Of a DNA stretch of 64,000 nt, positions 10,724 to 64,000 are shown one piece after another (positions within the stretch are counted from its first letter, which is position 1; each line of letters starts with the position of its first letter). Source of the DNA: Mesorhizobium sp. CAU 1732 (GTDB lineage: Bacteria; Pseudomonadota; Alphaproteobacteria; Rhizobiales; Rhizobiaceae); NCBI RefSeq assembly GCF_039888675.1, contig NZ_JBDQQR010000001.1:1-64000 (forward strand), given 5' to 3'. A model generated the notes under the pieces. That model made no database searches, was not told the origin of the DNA, and worked only from the letters and a program-made list of their open reading frames with translations. The translations under genes were made by a program, and so were the position numbers.

Positions 10724-11758
10724 TCAGGCGATATGATCGGCCCCGAGCGGGAAGTGGCACGCATAGCTCTGCCCCGGCAGCCCGTCACGCAGGACGGGTT
10801 CGACCTCCGCGCATCTGGCCTGCGCACGCGGGCAGCGCGTGCGAAACCGGCAGCCCGAGGGCGGGTTGGCCGGGCTCGGCACATCTCCGGTGAGAAGAAT
10901 GCGCCGACGCCGGCGCTCCTTGACAGGGTCGGGCAGCGGCACGGCCGACAAAAGCGCCTCGGTATAGGGATGGCGCGGATTGGCGTAGAGCTGTTCACGA
11001 TCCGCGAGTTCCACGATCTTGCCGAGATACATCACCGCGACCCGGTCGCACAGATGATGGATCACCGACAGGTCATGCGCGATGAACAGGTAGGACAGGC
11101 CGAACATCTCCTGCAAATCCTTGAGGAGATTGAGCACCCCGGCCTGGATCGAGACGTCGAGTGCGGAAACGGGTTCATCGAGGATGATGAGGTCGGGCTT
11201 GACCGCAAGAGCGCGCGCAATGCCGATGCGCTGGCGCTGACCGCCTGAAAACTCGTGCGGATAGCGCGACGCGTGCTGCGGATCGAGGCTGACCAGCTTC
11301 AGAAGTTCATCGACGCGGTCGTTTCGCTCGGCCTTCGACATGGCGGTGAGCCGCAGCGGCTCGGCGATGATGTCCCGCGTCGTCATGCGCGGGTGAAGCG
11401 AGGCATGCGGATCTTGGAAGACGAATTGCAGGCGGCGGCGTACCGGCCGCATCGCGCTCTGGTCGAGCGTCGCGAGATCGGTTCCGTCGAACAGAACGCG
11501 GCCGCCGGTCGGCCGCATCAGCCGCGCGACGCAGCGCGCCAGCGTCGATTTTCCGCAGCCGGATTCGCCGACGAGCCCCAGCGTCTCTCCCCGCGCCACG
11601 TCGAACGAGACGCCGGACACCGCCCGGACGCTGCCCGCAGCGCGGCCGAAGAGACCGTTACCGACCGGAAACTCCTTGACCAGTCCCTGCACCGAGAGAA
11701 GCGGCGCGGCGTTTCCGCCAAGACTGTCCGTGGCTGTGATGCGGTCAGGGCTGAGCAT
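10724..11758 (-). CDS. Dipeptide/oligopeptide-type ABC transporter ATPase, DppF-like
   Basis: 344-residue ATPase subunit. Walker A is GESGCGKST, the signature [12 protein letters not shown], Walker B LIILDEP, and the H-loop is in FIAHDLS. The C-terminal oligo/dipeptide extension includes cysteines ([14 protein letters not shown]) that in this subfamily bind an iron-sulphur cluster. The ATG at 11758 overlaps the upstream DppD-like gene by 14 nt; the long upstream extension in this frame is a shadow of that gene. It is the last gene of a five-gene leftward operon and converges on the TetR gene with an 18-nt gap. Confidence 0.87.
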
Positions 11759-54364: not shown

Positions 54365-55252
<888 letters not shown>

Positions 55253-55286
55253 ATCGAAACCGTATCGTTCAGCATCGGACAGAGGA

Positions 55287-56084
55287 TCAGGCAGCACGCA
55301 GCCTGCGCTCGCGTCGAATGACTTCCGAAGCAAGCTGCAAATAGGCCTGGCTGCCGCTGCATTTCAAATCGTAGAGGATGGCCGGCTTGCCGTAGGACGG
55401 CGCTTCGGAAACCCGGACATTGCGCGGGATCACGGTTTCATAGACCTTGTCGCCCATATGGGCGCGCACGTCCTCGACCACCTGATTGGCAAGATTGTTA
55501 CGACCATCGAACATCGTCAGCACGATGCCCTGGATCGTCAGTTCCGGATTGATCGAATTCCGGATCTGTTCGACGGTCTGGAGCAACTGGCTGAGCCCTT
55601 CGAGCGCGAAGAACTCGCATTGCAAGGGGACGAGCACCGAATCGGCCGCCGCCATCGAATTCAGCGTCAGAAGGTTGAGAGACGGCGGACAGTCGATCAG
55701 CACGTAACCGAAATCGACCCCTTCTCCGGCAGCGCGCCGCAACGCGTTCCTCAGCCGCAGCACACGATCGGGCGCGGCCGCGATCTCCATCTCGATACCG
55801 AGCAAATCGAGAGTTGACGGAATGATATATAAGCCGGGCACGGCGGTCGGCATGGCCGACTCGGCAACGCCGGCCTCACCCGTCAAAAGATCGTATGACG
55901 ATACCGACCGGTCCTGGCGATCGATGCCGAGTCCAGTGCTGGCATTGCCTTGCGGGTCCAGATCCACGATCAGCACCCGTTCGCCGATCGCGGCGAGCGC
56001 GGTGGCGAGGTTGATGGCCGTTGTGGTCTTGCCGACGCCGCCCTTCTGGTTGGCGACTGTGATGATGCGGGGTCGCGATGTCAT
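55287..56084 (-). CDS. parA: Chromosome partitioning ATPase ParA
   Basis: 265-residue deviant Walker ATPase that drives origin segregation. It has ITVANQKGGVGKTTTAINLATALA (deviant Walker A), LIVDLDPQGNASTGLG and YVLIDCPPSLNLLTLNSMAAADSVLVPLQ. It overlaps rsmG by ATGA upstream and is followed by parB after 34 nt. Confidence 0.97.
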   Translation of the reverse strand: MTSRPRIITVANQKGGVGKTTTAINLATALAAIGERVLIVDLDPQGNASTGLGIDRQDRSVSSYDLLTGEAGVAESAMPTAVPGLYIIPSTLDLLGIEMEIAAAPDRVLRLRNALRRAAGEGVDFGYVLIDCPPSLNLLTLNSMAAADSVLVPLQCEFFALEGLSQLLQTVEQIRNSINPELTIQGIVLTMFDGRNNLANQVVEDVRAHMGDKVYETVIPRNVRVSEAPSYGKPAILYDLKCSGSQAYLQLASEVIRRERRLRAA

Positions 56085-56746
56085 GGCGCGTTCGTTCTAT
56101 CGCTCGCTTCGTTGTCCCGGCGGCGTTCAAGCCTGGATATCTCCAGGATGCGGCTCTCCGGATCGATCTTGCTGACATGTTCTACCAGATCGAATCGCCA
56201 GGCGTCATGACTTTCGACAATCTCCGACGCGTAATCCCGGCCTTTGTGAAAGAGCGCGGTTGCGGTCTTCGTCAACCATGGAGCGGACAGATTCAACAAG
56301 AGGGGCAGGGGCGCAAGGGCCCGCGCCGTCACCACTTCAGGCACGGCGACGCGGTCTGCGGCATCCTCTATCCTGCAAATATGCACCTTGGCAGGCGCCC
56401 GCAGGCTTCCCAGAACAGTGCGAAGGAACGCCGCCTTCTTGTTGTTGCTCTCGACCAATTCGATCGACGCGCCGGGTCTGTCCATCAGCAGAATGGCCAT
56501 GATGGCGCCGGGAAACCCGCCACCGGATCCGAGATCGAGCCACTTCGATGCAGTTGGCTGCAGCGCCGCGAGTTGCGCGCTATCCAGGATATGCCTGCGC
56601 CATAGGCTGTCGAGCGTCGAGGGGGCTGCGAGATTGATGCTGGCCGACCATCTCCGGAATTCCCGTTCGAACGTGACAAGCCGTTCAAATGTTTCACGTG
56701 AAACCGGTCCAGCGACATTTTGGAGTTCGTCGTAGCGATCGCTCAC
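56081..56746 (-). CDS. rsmG: 16S rRNA (guanine-N7)-methyltransferase RsmG
   Basis: 221-residue methyltransferase that modifies G527 of 16S rRNA. The SAM site is in [19 protein letters not shown], with the family's HILDSAQL. It starts with GTG, overlapping the mnmG stop as GTGA. Codons for the N-terminal VSRET contain a perfect parS core (56691-56704), the usual dual-use arrangement. Confidence 0.95.
56690..56705. promoter_or_regulatory. parS site 1
   Basis: TGTTTCACGTGAAACC contains the perfect parS core GTTTCACGTGAAAC (56691-56704), inside the 5' end of rsmG. Confidence 0.9.
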
Positions 56747-58611: not shown

Positions 58612-58676
58612 GACTCGCTCCATGGAAGGTACGGTGCATGATCCCGGAGCGATAGACTGTCAAGAGCCGGCGTCAC

Positions 58677-58690
58677 GTTTCACGTGAAAC
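58677..58690. promoter_or_regulatory. parS site 2
   Basis: GTTTCACGTGAAAC, a perfect 14-bp parS core, in the intergenic region between mnmE and mnmG. Confidence 0.9.
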
Positions 58691-58714
58691 AACACACCGA
58701 CGGGCACCCTCACT

Positions 58715-58728
58715 GTTTCACGTGAGTC
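58715..58728. promoter_or_regulatory. parS-like site 3
   Basis: GTTTCACGTGAGTC differs from the parS core at one position in the right arm. It is 24 nt from parS site 2. Confidence 0.7.
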
Positions 58729-58752
58729 AGCGACGCTGCCAGCGTTTCGCGT

Positions 58753-58766
58753 GTTTCACGTGAATC
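58753..58766. promoter_or_regulatory. parS-like site 4
   Basis: GTTTCACGTGAATC differs from the parS core at one position, and overlaps the stop codon of mnmE (58765-58767). A weaker similar stretch (GTTTCGCGTG) adjoins it on the left. Confidence 0.7.
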
Positions 58767-60081
58767 ACTTCCCGATGCAGAATTGCGAGAAGATGACGCC
58801 GAGCAACTCCTCGACATCCACGGCTCCGGTGATCCGACCAAGCGCGTCACCCGCCAAGCGAAGCTCCTCGGCGCGTAACTCCAGATCGGCTGCCGGCTCC
58901 CCGGCAGCGTTCGCAACGTGCCCTGCGCACATTGTCAAAAGCTCTACATGACGAGCCCGAAACGGAACGATGCTCGTGACGGAACCAGCGTCGGCGGCTT
59001 TTGAAGCGATAGCGTCCAGCAGGCCGTTGAGACCTTCTCCGGTATGACTGGATACGAGGTGGTCGAATTCCTCACGTGCATCCGCTGTCTGCAGATCACG
59101 CTTTGTCCCGATCCTCCATACGGTATTCTGAGGCACCGATAGCGGGGAGGGTAAATTCCTATCAGACGAATCGATCAGCTCAAGAATCAGATCCGCATTT
59201 GCCGCTGCGGCCAGCGCCCGTTGGACCCCGATCACCTCGACGATATCGGTCGTGTCCCGCAGGCCGGCCGTATCCGTAACGATGATTTTGTAGCCCGACA
59301 GATCAAGGACGACGTCGATCGTATCGCGTGTGGTACCCGGTACGTCCGTGACGATCGCCACGTCCCGGCGCGCCAATGCATTGAGAAGGCTTGATTTTCC
59401 CGCATTGGGGGCGCCGATCAGCGCGACGCGGAAACCCTCGCGCACGATTTCCGCTGCGTGATAGCCCGTCAGATGCTGCTCGATCTGCGAATGCAGCGAG
59501 CGCATGGACTGCCAGACTTGATCCGATACCGAACCCGGAACATCGGCCTCGTCCGCAAAGTCCAGCTCAGCCTCGATCATGGCGCGCGCATGAAGAAGTT
59601 GATTGCGCCAACCCGCGTAGAGCTTTGCCTGGCCGCCGTCCGCGTGTGTGACGGCGAGCCGACGCTGTGCCTCGGTCTCTGAAGCGATCAGATCCCCCAA
59701 TGCTTCAGCGCCTGTGAGATCGACCTTTCCATTGATAAAGGCCCTGCGGGTAAATTCCCCGGCTTCCGCGTGGCGAAGCCCCTCAAAAGTCGTCAGAAAT
59801 GACAACATAGCCTGGACAACCGCCTTGCCGCCATGCAGATGGAACTCGACGCATTCCTCGCCGGTGAAGCTGTGTGGCGCGGGGAAGTAGACCACGAGCC
59901 CGCGATCCAGGACGGTTCCATCCTGCTGCCTGATTGTACAAAGTTCCGCTTTGCGAGATGCAGGGATGCGTCCAATTGCGCCGCGAAGAACCGGCTCGAC
60001 GTCGGGTCCCGAGACGCGAATAACCGCCACGCCGGACGGCAAGCCTCCGCTGGACAGGGCGAAAATCGTATCCCGGAACAT
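58765..60081 (-). CDS. mnmE: tRNA modification GTPase MnmE
   Basis: 438-residue GTPase that acts with MnmG on wobble uridines. The N-terminal tetrahydrofolate-binding domain has VIRVSGPD and FTGEECVEFHLHGGKAV. The GTPase motifs are GAPNAGKSSLLNAL (G1) and DTAGLRDT (G3). The base-specificity motif, normally NKxD, reads TKRD here. The C-terminus is CIGK, with the conserved cysteine. It lies 99 nt downstream of rho on the same strand. Confidence 0.95.
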   Translation of the reverse strand: MFRDTIFALSSGGLPSGVAVIRVSGPDVEPVLRGAIGRIPASRKAELCTIRQQDGTVLDRGLVVYFPAPHSFTGEECVEFHLHGGKAVVQAMLSFLTTFEGLRHAEAGEFTRRAFINGKVDLTGAEALGDLIASETEAQRRLAVTHADGGQAKLYAGWRNQLLHARAMIEAELDFADEADVPGSVSDQVWQSMRSLHSQIEQHLTGYHAAEIVREGFRVALIGAPNAGKSSLLNALARRDVAIVTDVPGTTRDTIDVVLDLSGYKIIVTDTAGLRDTTDIVEVIGVQRALAAAANADLILELIDSSDRNLPSPLSVPQNTVWRIGTKRDLQTADAREEFDHLVSSHTGEGLNGLLDAIASKAADAGSVTSIVPFRARHVELLTMCAGHVANAAGEPAADLELRAEELRLAGDALGRITGAVDVEELLGVIFSQFCIGK

Positions 60082-61608: not shown

Positions 61609-62142
61609 CTACAAGGGTTTAACCACCACGAGGATCACGATCACCACCATCAGAACGGTCGGGATCTCGTTGACGATGCGCCAGTGTCGTGTCGGTTTTG
61701 TGTTGCTATCCCCGGCAAACCTGCGCACCGATGCCGAGAGGTAGCCGTGAACGCCGGACAGCAGCAAGACGGCCGCGATCTTGGCATGCAGCCAGCCCCC
61801 TGAAAAACCGAAGCCCCGCCAGGCCAGCCAGAGCCCCAGGACCCAGGTGACGACCATCGCCGGATTGATGATCGCCCGCAAAAGCCTGCGCTCCATCACC
61901 TTGAAGGTCTCGGACGTGTCGGAACCCGGTTCGGCCTGCGCATGATAGACGAAAAGGCGCGGCAGGTAGAGCATCCCGGCCATCCAGGAGATTACCGCGA
62001 TCACATGGAATGCCTTGATCCAGTCGTACCACGACACCGGCGCAGCCAGAAACAATGCGGCCGTCAGTCCGGCGACGATCAGCAGCGACACGAGCGCCCG
62101 CATCATCGGAGTGCCGGATTTCGATGCGGTAGCACCACTCAT
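61609..62142 (-). CDS. hemJ: Protoporphyrinogen IX oxidase HemJ
   Basis: 177-residue membrane protein with four to five helices that carries out the oxygen-independent-type protoporphyrinogen oxidation in many alphaproteobacteria. Conserved residues are in [27 protein letters not shown] and [15 protein letters not shown], containing the histidines thought to bind haem, and the final [15 protein letters not shown]. It overlaps hemE by ATGA. The two genes give consecutive late steps of haem synthesis. Confidence 0.88.
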
Positions 62143-63173
62143 GTCGTCGCCTCACGAACCCGCGCCACCATGCGTTCCACATGGGCGATGGGAGCCTCGG
62201 GCGTGATGCCGTGACCAAGGTTGAACACCAGAGGGCCGGAACCGAGTTCGCGCAGGATGGCGTCGACACCCTCATCGAGCGCCTTGCCGCCGGCAACCAG
62301 TCGCAGCGGGTCGAGATTGCCCTGTACCGCACCGTGCCCCTGGAGCGTCTTTGCCTGGCTCAGCGGCACGGACCAATCGATGCCCAGCGCAGTGATGCCA
62401 GTGGCCGCCCTGTAGCCGTCGTAGAGCGATCCAGCACCCTTCGGAAAGCCGATGATCGGCGTGTCGGGATGAACAGCGCGGACCCGTCGCACGATCTCGG
62501 CCACCGGACGCATGCAATAGTCCTGAAAACACGCTTCATCGAGGACACCGGACCAGGAATCGAAAATCTGGACTGCGTCCGCGCCGGCATCGATCTGGCG
62601 AATGAGATAGTCGGCGGATTGACGGGCAAGCAGGTCGAGCAGATCGCGCATGGCCTCGGGATGCCGATAACCGAAGAGCCGCGCTGGTGCCTGGTCGGGC
62701 GTTCCATGCCCCGCGATCATGTAGGTCGCGACCGTCCAGGGCGCGCCGCAGAAACCGAGCAGCGTGGTTTCCTCAGGCAGCTCTTTGCGCAACCGCCGGA
62801 CCGTCTCGTAGACCGGCGCCAAAACCTCGTGGAAAGCCTCGGTAGACAGCGTGGCAATGTCTTCCATCGCGATCGGCGTCATCACAGGCCCACGTCCTTC
62901 CTCAAAGCGCAGGTCACGGCCAAGCGCATGGGGAACGACCAGGATATCGGAAAACAGGATCGAGGCGTCGAAGCCGAACCGCTTGATCGGCTGCAGGGTC
63001 ACTTCAACGGCGAAATCCGGATTGTAGCAGAGGTCGAGGAAACCACCTGCTCGCTTGCGCGTTTCACGGTACTCGGGAAGGTAGCGTCCCGCTTGTCGCA
63101 TCATCCAGATCGGTGGCGGGAAAACGGTCTCTCCCCTGAGCACATCAAGGACGATTCGCTTCTTCTCAGCCAT
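62139..63173 (-). CDS. hemE: Uroporphyrinogen decarboxylase
   Basis: 344-residue enzyme that decarboxylates uroporphyrinogen III to coproporphyrinogen III. Signatures are [20 protein letters not shown] (with the catalytic arginines), [27 protein letters not shown] and [12 protein letters not shown]. It is the last gene before the probable origin and is transcribed away from it. Confidence 0.97.
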
Positions 63174-63583
63174 TCTTACCCTTCGAGGACCAAGCGCCCT
63201 AAAACTAAAAAGACTCTTTTAATGGAATCTTTTGATTCTACGACTCTGTTGGTAACGGCAATTGTCGGTTCTGCACGATCAGGCCGCGAGAAAGACGCTG
63301 TAAGCGTTTCCGGTATCGTCAGGATACCCGTGGAACAACTTCGGGGATAACCCTGAAAAAGAGATGAGAATCAGTCTCTTACGGATCGACGAAAAATGCC
63401 GGGTTTGGCGCTCGGCGGGACGAAGCGACGCAGCCCCCATTTTCATTCACAGCCCCCTTTCGTTTTCGACGGCAGGGCGAATTGTGGACAAACCGGCCTC
63501 TGATACAGTCCGGTCGGAATGCCGGGGAAAACTGTCTCCGTTATCCACACGCACCAACAGGGTACGGGACGGCCTGTGAACAA
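63174..63583. other. Probable chromosomal replication origin (oriC)
   Basis: The 402-nt gap between hemE and the ppsR-type gene holds a perfect DnaA box TTATCCACA (63541-63549) and two more matches to TTNTNCACA on the other strand (63483-63491 and 63575-63583). A weaker match (TTATCCCCG, minus strand) ends at 63350. Five GANTC methylation sites lie at 63212, 63225, 63234, 63242 and 63368, four of them in an AT-rich stretch at 63200-63240. In Caulobacter and Rickettsia, as I recall, oriC lies between hemE and the homologue of this same right-hand gene (RP001). Four parS sites are 5-7 kb away, as expected. Confidence 0.72.
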
Positions 63584-64000
63584 ACAGCAAAGCTTCTTTC
63601 ATCTCCACATGATCTCCGACGCGACGGGCGAAACGCTGCTCTCGGCGGGCCGCGCGGCTGCGGCCCAGTACAAGGATGCGCGTGCGATCGAGCACATTTA
63701 TCCGCTAATCCGGACCGAGCGGCAGCTCATCAAGGTGCTCGAGGAAATCGATGAGTCGCCCGGCATCGTCCTCTACACGGTCGTCGATCAGGACCTTGGC
63801 CGCCTCATCGACAGCCGCTGCGCCACGATGGGTCTTCCTTGCGTCTCCGTGCTCGAGCCGGTCCTGACGGTCTTCCAGTCCTATCTCGGGGCACCTGCCG
63901 GCAGACGGGTGGGCGCGCAGCACGTTCTCGATGCGCAATATTTCCGCCGTATCGACGCGCTGAATTACACGATGGAGCACGATGACGGTCAGCTCTCGAA
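63576..64000 (+). CDS. PPDK/PEP-synthase regulatory protein (DUF299), partial
   Basis: The first 141 codons of a kinase/pyrophosphorylase that controls pyruvate phosphate dikinase or PEP synthase by reversible phosphorylation. The frame opens with GTG (63576) as [21 protein letters not shown], and [13 protein letters not shown] is the diagnostic start of the family; [24 protein letters not shown] is its next conserved block. The gene runs past the right edge, so the P-loop and C-terminus are not seen. A DnaA-box match overlaps the start codon. Confidence 0.88.

Follow-up and report, generated by a model that had tools for sequence, protein, structure and literature searches.

A probable chromosomal replication origin between hemE and a COG1806-type gene in Mesorhizobium sp. 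CAU 1732, with a conserved block of GANTC sites

The window analysed here, that is the whole stretch of DNA under study, covers the initial 64 kb of contig C1 (3,622,300 bp) in the 5.44-Mb, six-contig genome of Mesorhizobium sp. CAU 1732. Near its right end two divergent genes enclose a gap of 402 bp (63174..63575), which we propose as the chromosomal oriC in view of its boxes, its GANTC sites, its AT-rich end, and a gene pair and gap that 89 of 101 loci of relatives share. The left flank is the minus-strand hemE gene (62139..63173), encoding uroporphyrinogen decarboxylase, which scored 415.8 bits with TIGR01464 (cut-off 302.95) and was the sole URO-D match in a genome-wide profile search. The right flank is a plus-strand DUF299/COG1806 PPDK-PEPS regulator gene (63576..64000, continuing past the window to C1:64397; NF003742, 329.1 bits, cut-off 225), which starts with GTG at 63576-63578. 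The GC content of the gap is 0.52 versus 0.64 for the window. A sequence-only reading of this DNA had given the feature a span of 63174-63583; the gap itself is real, but it ends at 63575, and 63583 is the last position of the third DnaA box. We take the ORF at 61609-62142 to be hemJ, and we infer that the leftward hemE-hemJ-rho transcript is an operon. Of the 80 best hemE loci retained from named genomes, a set from which the source genome itself was possibly excluded, the closest was that of Aquamicrobium sp. LC103 (81% protein identity), followed by those of Chelativorans, Mesorhizobium, Phyllobacterium and Aminobacter.

The three matches to TTNTNCACA noticed earlier in the gap were confirmed by motif count, and all of them sit at its right, DUF299 end. 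Box 1 (TTGTCCACA, 63483..63491, minus strand) is matched by TTNTNCACA at the corresponding alignment position in 56 of 80 relatives. Box 2 (TTATCCACA, 63541..63549, plus strand) is one of 7 copies of this sequence genome-wide, and its aligned place carries TTNTNCACA in 42 of the 80 relatives and TTATCCACA itself in 23. Box 3 (TTGTTCACA, 63575..63583, minus strand) extends into the DUF299 gene and overlaps its GTG start; of the 80 aligned relatives, 45 retain the box and 77 the GTG. From this overlap it had been suggested that DnaA may also control the gene. The overlap is indeed there, and judging from the sequence such control is possible, but the conservation of the box and of the start codon does not make it general. 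The 64-kb window holds six TTNTNCACA, three of them the boxes of the gap. In 20,000 dinucleotide shuffles of 63174-63597, at least three TTNTNCACA boxes were obtained by chance with P 5e-5, and a cluster of at least three within 424 bp was found in the gap only, in a scan that covered 2.56 Mb of the 3.62-Mb C1 (64 boxes in all) and very little of C2-C6. The exact weak box TCCCCA does not occur in the gap of the window; such boxes, arranged as in Caulobacter, are common in relatives, at 1.36 per gap versus 0.09 in controls.

The end of the gap beside hemE is AT-rich, as had been claimed for 63200..63240. The weakest 40 bp of the gap start at 63200 and have 22.5% GC, and their duplex stability falls within the weakest 0.007% of the C1 positions examined; 8 positions of the window are weaker still. 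Among 89 relatives, 73 likewise have the least stable 40 bp of their gap starting at most 40 bp from hemE. This low-stability stretch is a candidate unwinding element or, alternatively, a hemE leader or promoter.

Five GANTC sites within 161 bp (at 63212, 63225, 63234, 63242 and 63368) had also been reported, and these we recovered. Site 1 (GACTC, 63212..63216) is matched by an aligned GANTC in only 4 of 80 relatives. Sites 2, 3 and 4, followed by TGTT, form a block (63225..63250) located 52-77 bp upstream of the hemE start codon, and their GANTC is kept in 48, 57 and 77 of the 80 relatives, respectively, compared with 32 for site 5 (GAATC, 63368..63372). At least five GANTC were obtained by chance with P 0.048 in 20,000 dinucleotide shuffles of 63174-63597, so that the number by itself is weak evidence. 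For four GANTC within 35 bp such shuffles gave a P of 1e-4, and this knot, near the left end of the gap, is unique on the 2.56 Mb of C1, where the density of GANTC is 1.42 per kb versus 3.35 expected from base composition. The same 2.56 Mb have five GANTC in 161 bp at four other places (from 528186, 1100121, 1624840 and 3280610). Each of these lies ahead of the longest ORF of a gene or runs across its start, the genes being dnaA, gcrA, a DivJ/PdhS-like histidine kinase and ddl. The kinase scores below curated cut-offs; in dnaA about 150 residues of the longest ORF precede the conserved part of the protein, so the GANTC cluster there may lie several hundred bases away from the actual start. This distribution suggests that GANTC clusters mark cell-cycle genes in this genome.

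The comparison with relatives comprised 101 loci, 80 from named genomes and 21 others; loci L034-L041 were excluded, being left-hand matches in genomes that had been counted once. These relatives are not independent of one another, and L025 and L100 are apparently the same contig (both 112,272 bases). The divergent hemE/DUF299 pair is kept in 89 loci, with a gap of 374-451 bp in 86 of them and of 490, 515 and 754 bp in the other three. Across the 89 gaps there are 2.34 TTNTNCACA boxes per gap versus 0.028 in 1549 control windows of the same loci, and 4.97 GANTC versus 0.96. As the control windows are mostly coding and GC-richer, shuffled gaps are the fairer control; with these, the 80 relatives that could be aligned (nine of the 89 gaps were excluded as too long) have 2.39 boxes per gap versus 0.06, and 4.89 GANTC versus 2.0. 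At least three boxes are present in 48 of the 89 gaps, and no TTNTNCACA in 4. One locus of this kind, L113, is titled Bacillus subtilis SK6B4; its hemE is 72% identical to that of the window and its hemE-DUF299 gap is similar (3 boxes, 5 GANTC), so that the title or the assembly looks mislabelled.

In the alignment of 80 relatives, 63225-63250 is the most conserved part of the left half of the gap. All three sites of the block are kept in 41 relatives and none in 3. The middle letter of site 3 is always T, and that of the other two varies (site 2: 19 A, 15 T, 14 G; site 4: 56 G, 20 C, 1 A) while GA and TC are constant, as would be expected if the methylation site itself were selected. We considered whether the enrichment might be a mere consequence of low GC, and rejected this idea: relatives' gaps hold 4.9 GANTC versus 2.0 after shuffling, and at 4.93 per gap GANTC is more frequent than any of seven other gapped palindromes composed of these letters, which occur 0.75-2.42 times. 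Gaps of the Rhizobium/Agrobacterium type are more variable, with 1-8 GANTC in 10 gaps, 4 of which have only 1-2. The pattern GATTCTNNGANTCTGT, sought across the order, matched in 10 of 199 genomes, the source genome included. Since it occurs in so few genomes, this form is not general in the order. Six of the ten matches lie between hemE and DUF299, namely in the source genome, three others of its family and two of another family; three further genomes of the source family in the 199-genome sample gave no match. The other four have neither hemE nor DUF299 within the 2.1-3.0 kb examined and are likely to be chance matches, a reversed control pattern having given 3. The literature searched, whose coverage leaves out the key origin papers, gave no description of this conserved block, and we do not claim the block as unreported.

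The 12 of 101 loci that have no DUF299 match beside hemE were analysed separately, and in none of them is there a cluster of consensus boxes upstream of hemE. In the genomes of two (L075 and L104), the hemE that was found sits elsewhere, with neither block nor boxes; there the DUF299 gene keeps 2-3 boxes as well as GANTC sites 3 and 4 at the usual distance, site 2 is lost, and a gene like the window's ORF 61609-62142 is now the left flank of the gap. In two metagenome-assembled genomes (L098 and L114) the locus is a second hemE copy, the block-bearing copy adjoining DUF299; these may be mixed assemblies. The remote hemE copies of these four genomes thus have neither the box cluster nor the three-site block, the one in L114 having a lone ACAGATTC at -189. 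Eight genomes of the Aurantimonas/Aureimonas type (L119, L120, L121, L123, L125, L126, L127 and L139), of unstated completeness, gave no DUF299/COG1806 match; by eye, a GA(C/G)TC..AGAA version of the block is present upstream of hemE in all eight, with consensus boxes absent or single. The block therefore largely follows the origin rather than hemE, and it may be an operon promoter that survives the loss of hemE. The idea of a hemE-specific promoter element was rejected, as the four remote hemE copies do not carry the three-site block. In Pseudaminobacter soli HC19 and Mesorhizobium ephedrae 6GN-30 (L298 and L299 compared with L075 and L104), hemE has gone from the origin's side and a hemJ-like gene flanks the gap.

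Partition genes lie close to the gap. A parB gene (54365-55333) and a parA gene (55287-56084) occupy 54365..56084 on the minus strand; the ParB domain scored 188 bits with TIGR00180 (cut-off 58.45), and parA, which gave no NCBIfam match at E 1e-40, is presumably what its sequence indicates. With TGTTNCACGTGNAACA, which we take to be the parS motif, one-mismatch sites were found at 56690..56705 and, as a pair (58676-58691 and 58752-58767), within 58676..58767. Such parS-like 16-mers with at most one mismatch occur only at these three places in the whole genome (C1 56.7-58.8 kb), beside parAB and 4.4-6.5 kb from the gap. One source names the parAB genes as well suited to anchor the curation of alphaproteobacterial ori (PMC8116508).

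Strand composition, which had been put forward as a check, placed the origin less precisely. When the first 1.22 Mb of C1 are taken as linear, cumulative GC skew stands at -143 at 10,827, -117 at 64,313 and -87 at 63,380; when C1 is closed into a circle, the minimum of the gap-free stretch falls at 3,584,542. Skewed 8-mers trained away from the region stay near zero over 0-130 kb, with their lowest value at about 20 kb. With 60% of C1 read and the rest interpolated, GC skew is mostly positive from about 65 kb to 2.82 Mb and negative from 2.82 to 3.62 Mb, so that C1 alone has lopsided arms and a turn of polarity at about 2.82 Mb. GC skew, AT skew and skewed 8-mers all reverse their polarity between the two parts of the contig, but within about 100 kb of the gap their signal is too faint to single out a base. 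In short, a broad flat zone at the start of the contig includes the gap and is not centred on it; there is neither a sharp minimum nor one clearly elsewhere.

C1 is probably not the whole chromosome. This view rests on a 902-residue class-I tRNA synthetase frame on C2 (by inference of the leucyl type), on the failure to find any 16S match in the whole assembly, which is rated 99.9% complete, on a 123-bp identical stretch shared by C2 and C3 near their starts, and on the two ends of C1, between which no overlap was found. Contigs may break at rRNA operons; five contig-end stretches, where rRNA was sought, and the window gave no Rfam match. A RepC (RP-C) match of a repABC replicon was observed inside the chromosomal contig, at C1:2426105-2426617 (L237); further matches are on C4 (one) and C5 (two). 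The copy on C1 may stem from plasmid integration, replicon fusion or an assembly join.

The motifs used for parS, CtrA, IHF and the weak TCCCCA box are consensus forms from general background. Unlike the Caulobacter crescentus origin, Cori, the gap has neither the CtrA site TTAA-N7-TTAA nor the IHF consensus WATCAANNNNTTR; among 89 relatives, TTAA-N6/7-TTAA is present in 6 and WATCAANNNNTTR in 7. The chromosomal oriC of Sinorhizobium meliloti, a related rhizobium whose origin was mapped in Sibley 2006, is also among the closest known systems. Cori shares other features with the gap: the published comparison (PMC1914354) gives it the same two flanking genes, a length of >400 bp, an AT-rich 40 bp and DnaA boxes, and another source adds GANTC sites (PMC3973325). 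Its DnaA-binding sites are described as moderate G-boxes and very weak W-boxes (PMC4468827), whereas the boxes of the gap are near the E. coli consensus. The order hemE - gap - DUF299 had been given as that of the Caulobacter and Rickettsia origins, and this is borne out by publication, in that both lie between hemE and the same COG1806-type gene (PMC1914354). The predicted origins of Rickettsia prowazekii and Wolbachia share the hemE flank, DnaA-type boxes and above-average AT, and that of Wolbachia differs in its reported CtrA and IHF sites and its other neighbour gene, COG1253 (PMC1914354).

Taken together, we consider it very probable (about 0.93), judging by sequence comparison, that the gap is an oriC of the hemE-COG1806 kind, that is the DnaA-dependent main-chromosome origin of a Rhizobiaceae-type alphaproteobacterium, without the CtrA and IHF sites of Caulobacter. 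The call had been made before from the letters alone, and it now finds support in a box cluster that is unique on the DNA examined, with a shuffle P of 5e-5, in the conserved gene pair, gap length, boxes and AT-rich end (89 of 101 loci), in parS and parAB close by, in a single DnaA match in the genome, in published origins between the same genes, and in the boxes and two of the block's GANTC sites that remain beside DUF299 in the two genomes where hemE has left. It is weakened by the lack of a sharp GC-skew minimum, the lopsided arms of C1, the number of consensus boxes (three only), the lack of an exact TCCCCA and the 4 of 89 gaps that are boxless. One may ask whether the gap is instead only a divergent hemE/DUF299 promoter region, regulated by DnaA and CcrM, with the origin elsewhere. 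The box over the DUF299 start codon, the GANTC clusters also found upstream of dnaA and gcrA, and a GC skew that is not sharply at the gap would all fit such an arrangement. Nevertheless, a mere promoter region accounts poorly for a box cluster found nowhere else on the DNA examined, for parS and parAB nearby, for a gap that persists in both genomes from which hemE moved away, and for four remote hemE copies that have no box cluster, and we regard it as very improbable.

If the gap is the oriC, its anatomy and general knowledge of bacterial origins suggest how it might work. DnaA would assemble on the three boxes at the DUF299 end, helped by weaker sites, and the assembled protein would open the AT-rich end beside hemE, where the helicase would be loaded; ParB on the nearby parS sites would then separate the duplicated origins. 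The conserved GANTC block at the AT-rich end would be a target of CcrM methylation and would be hemimethylated right after initiation, and this state might be read by initiation or by transcription through the origin. In most respects the gap is an ordinary, well-formed alphaproteobacterial oriC, and its one less ordinary trait is the conserved GANTC knot.

What the block does may be explained in two ways, both of which accept the oriC. On one hand, it might couple initiation to CcrM, as had been suggested from the sequence, with hemimethylation blocking or delaying re-initiation as GATC/SeqA does in E. coli. The enrichment and conservation of GANTC are real: GANTC outnumbers all seven same-letter palindromes in relatives' gaps, the N of sites 2 and 4 varies while GA and TC stay, sites 3 and 4 remain at the origin in both genomes that hemE left, and a block-like element lies beside hemE in the eight genomes with no DUF299 match. 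As in a SeqA/Dam-like gated origin, methylation sites are enriched at this one, in a knot unique on the C1 examined and a conserved block. The genome also has a methylase resembling CcrM (RAMA domain present; 637 bits, short of the 830 required for the Caulobacter equivalog) and a gcrA gene whose product is above the Pfam cut-off and, on a partial frame, below that of NCBIfam. In Caulobacter, overexpression of CcrM is reported to raise the chromosome number (PMC3973325). However, the same paper reports that Caulobacter without CcrM has, in minimal medium, a DNA-content profile like that of the wild type, and its authors conclude that initiation control does not require CcrM. In Agrobacterium, either depleting or overexpressing CcrM altered ori2 and left ori1 unchanged (PMC11514494); that paper also mentions abnormally high DNA content in Brucella abortus. 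With Caulobacter and Agrobacterium ori1 both pointing against the coupling, 4 of 10 Rhizobium/Agrobacterium-type gaps holding only 1-2 GANTC, and no protein assigned as reader, we consider it unlikely.

On the other hand, the block might serve the leftward hemE-hemJ-rho transcript as a promoter element of the CcrM/GcrA type, perhaps also aiding the opening of the origin. Its distance from the hemE start codon is evidence in favour, as are the other four GANTC clusters at or upstream of the ORF starts of dnaA, gcrA, the DivJ/PdhS-like kinase and ddl, and the hemJ-like gene that adjoins the block where hemE is gone. The four remote hemE copies speak against an element specific to hemE. On this sequence evidence we hold the promoter element only tentatively, at somewhat below an even chance. 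As GANTC clusters seem to mark cell-cycle genes in this genome, the block is at least as likely to act in a promoter as in initiation.

It is also conceivable, though doubtful, that the triple-GANTC block is a methylation switch owned by the origin in this branch of the Rhizobiaceae, which late CcrM methylation would reset and through which GcrA or another reader of hemimethylation would time either origin opening or leftward transcription. If true, the switch would be a GANTC counterpart of GATC/SeqA, of a kind on which Caulobacter and Agrobacterium do not depend. The analysis locates the likely replication start in a multi-replicon alphaproteobacterium and provides a compact, conserved map of this class of origin, in which the GANTC block offers a precise target for asking whether CcrM methylation touches DnaA-dependent initiation in any alphaproteobacterium.
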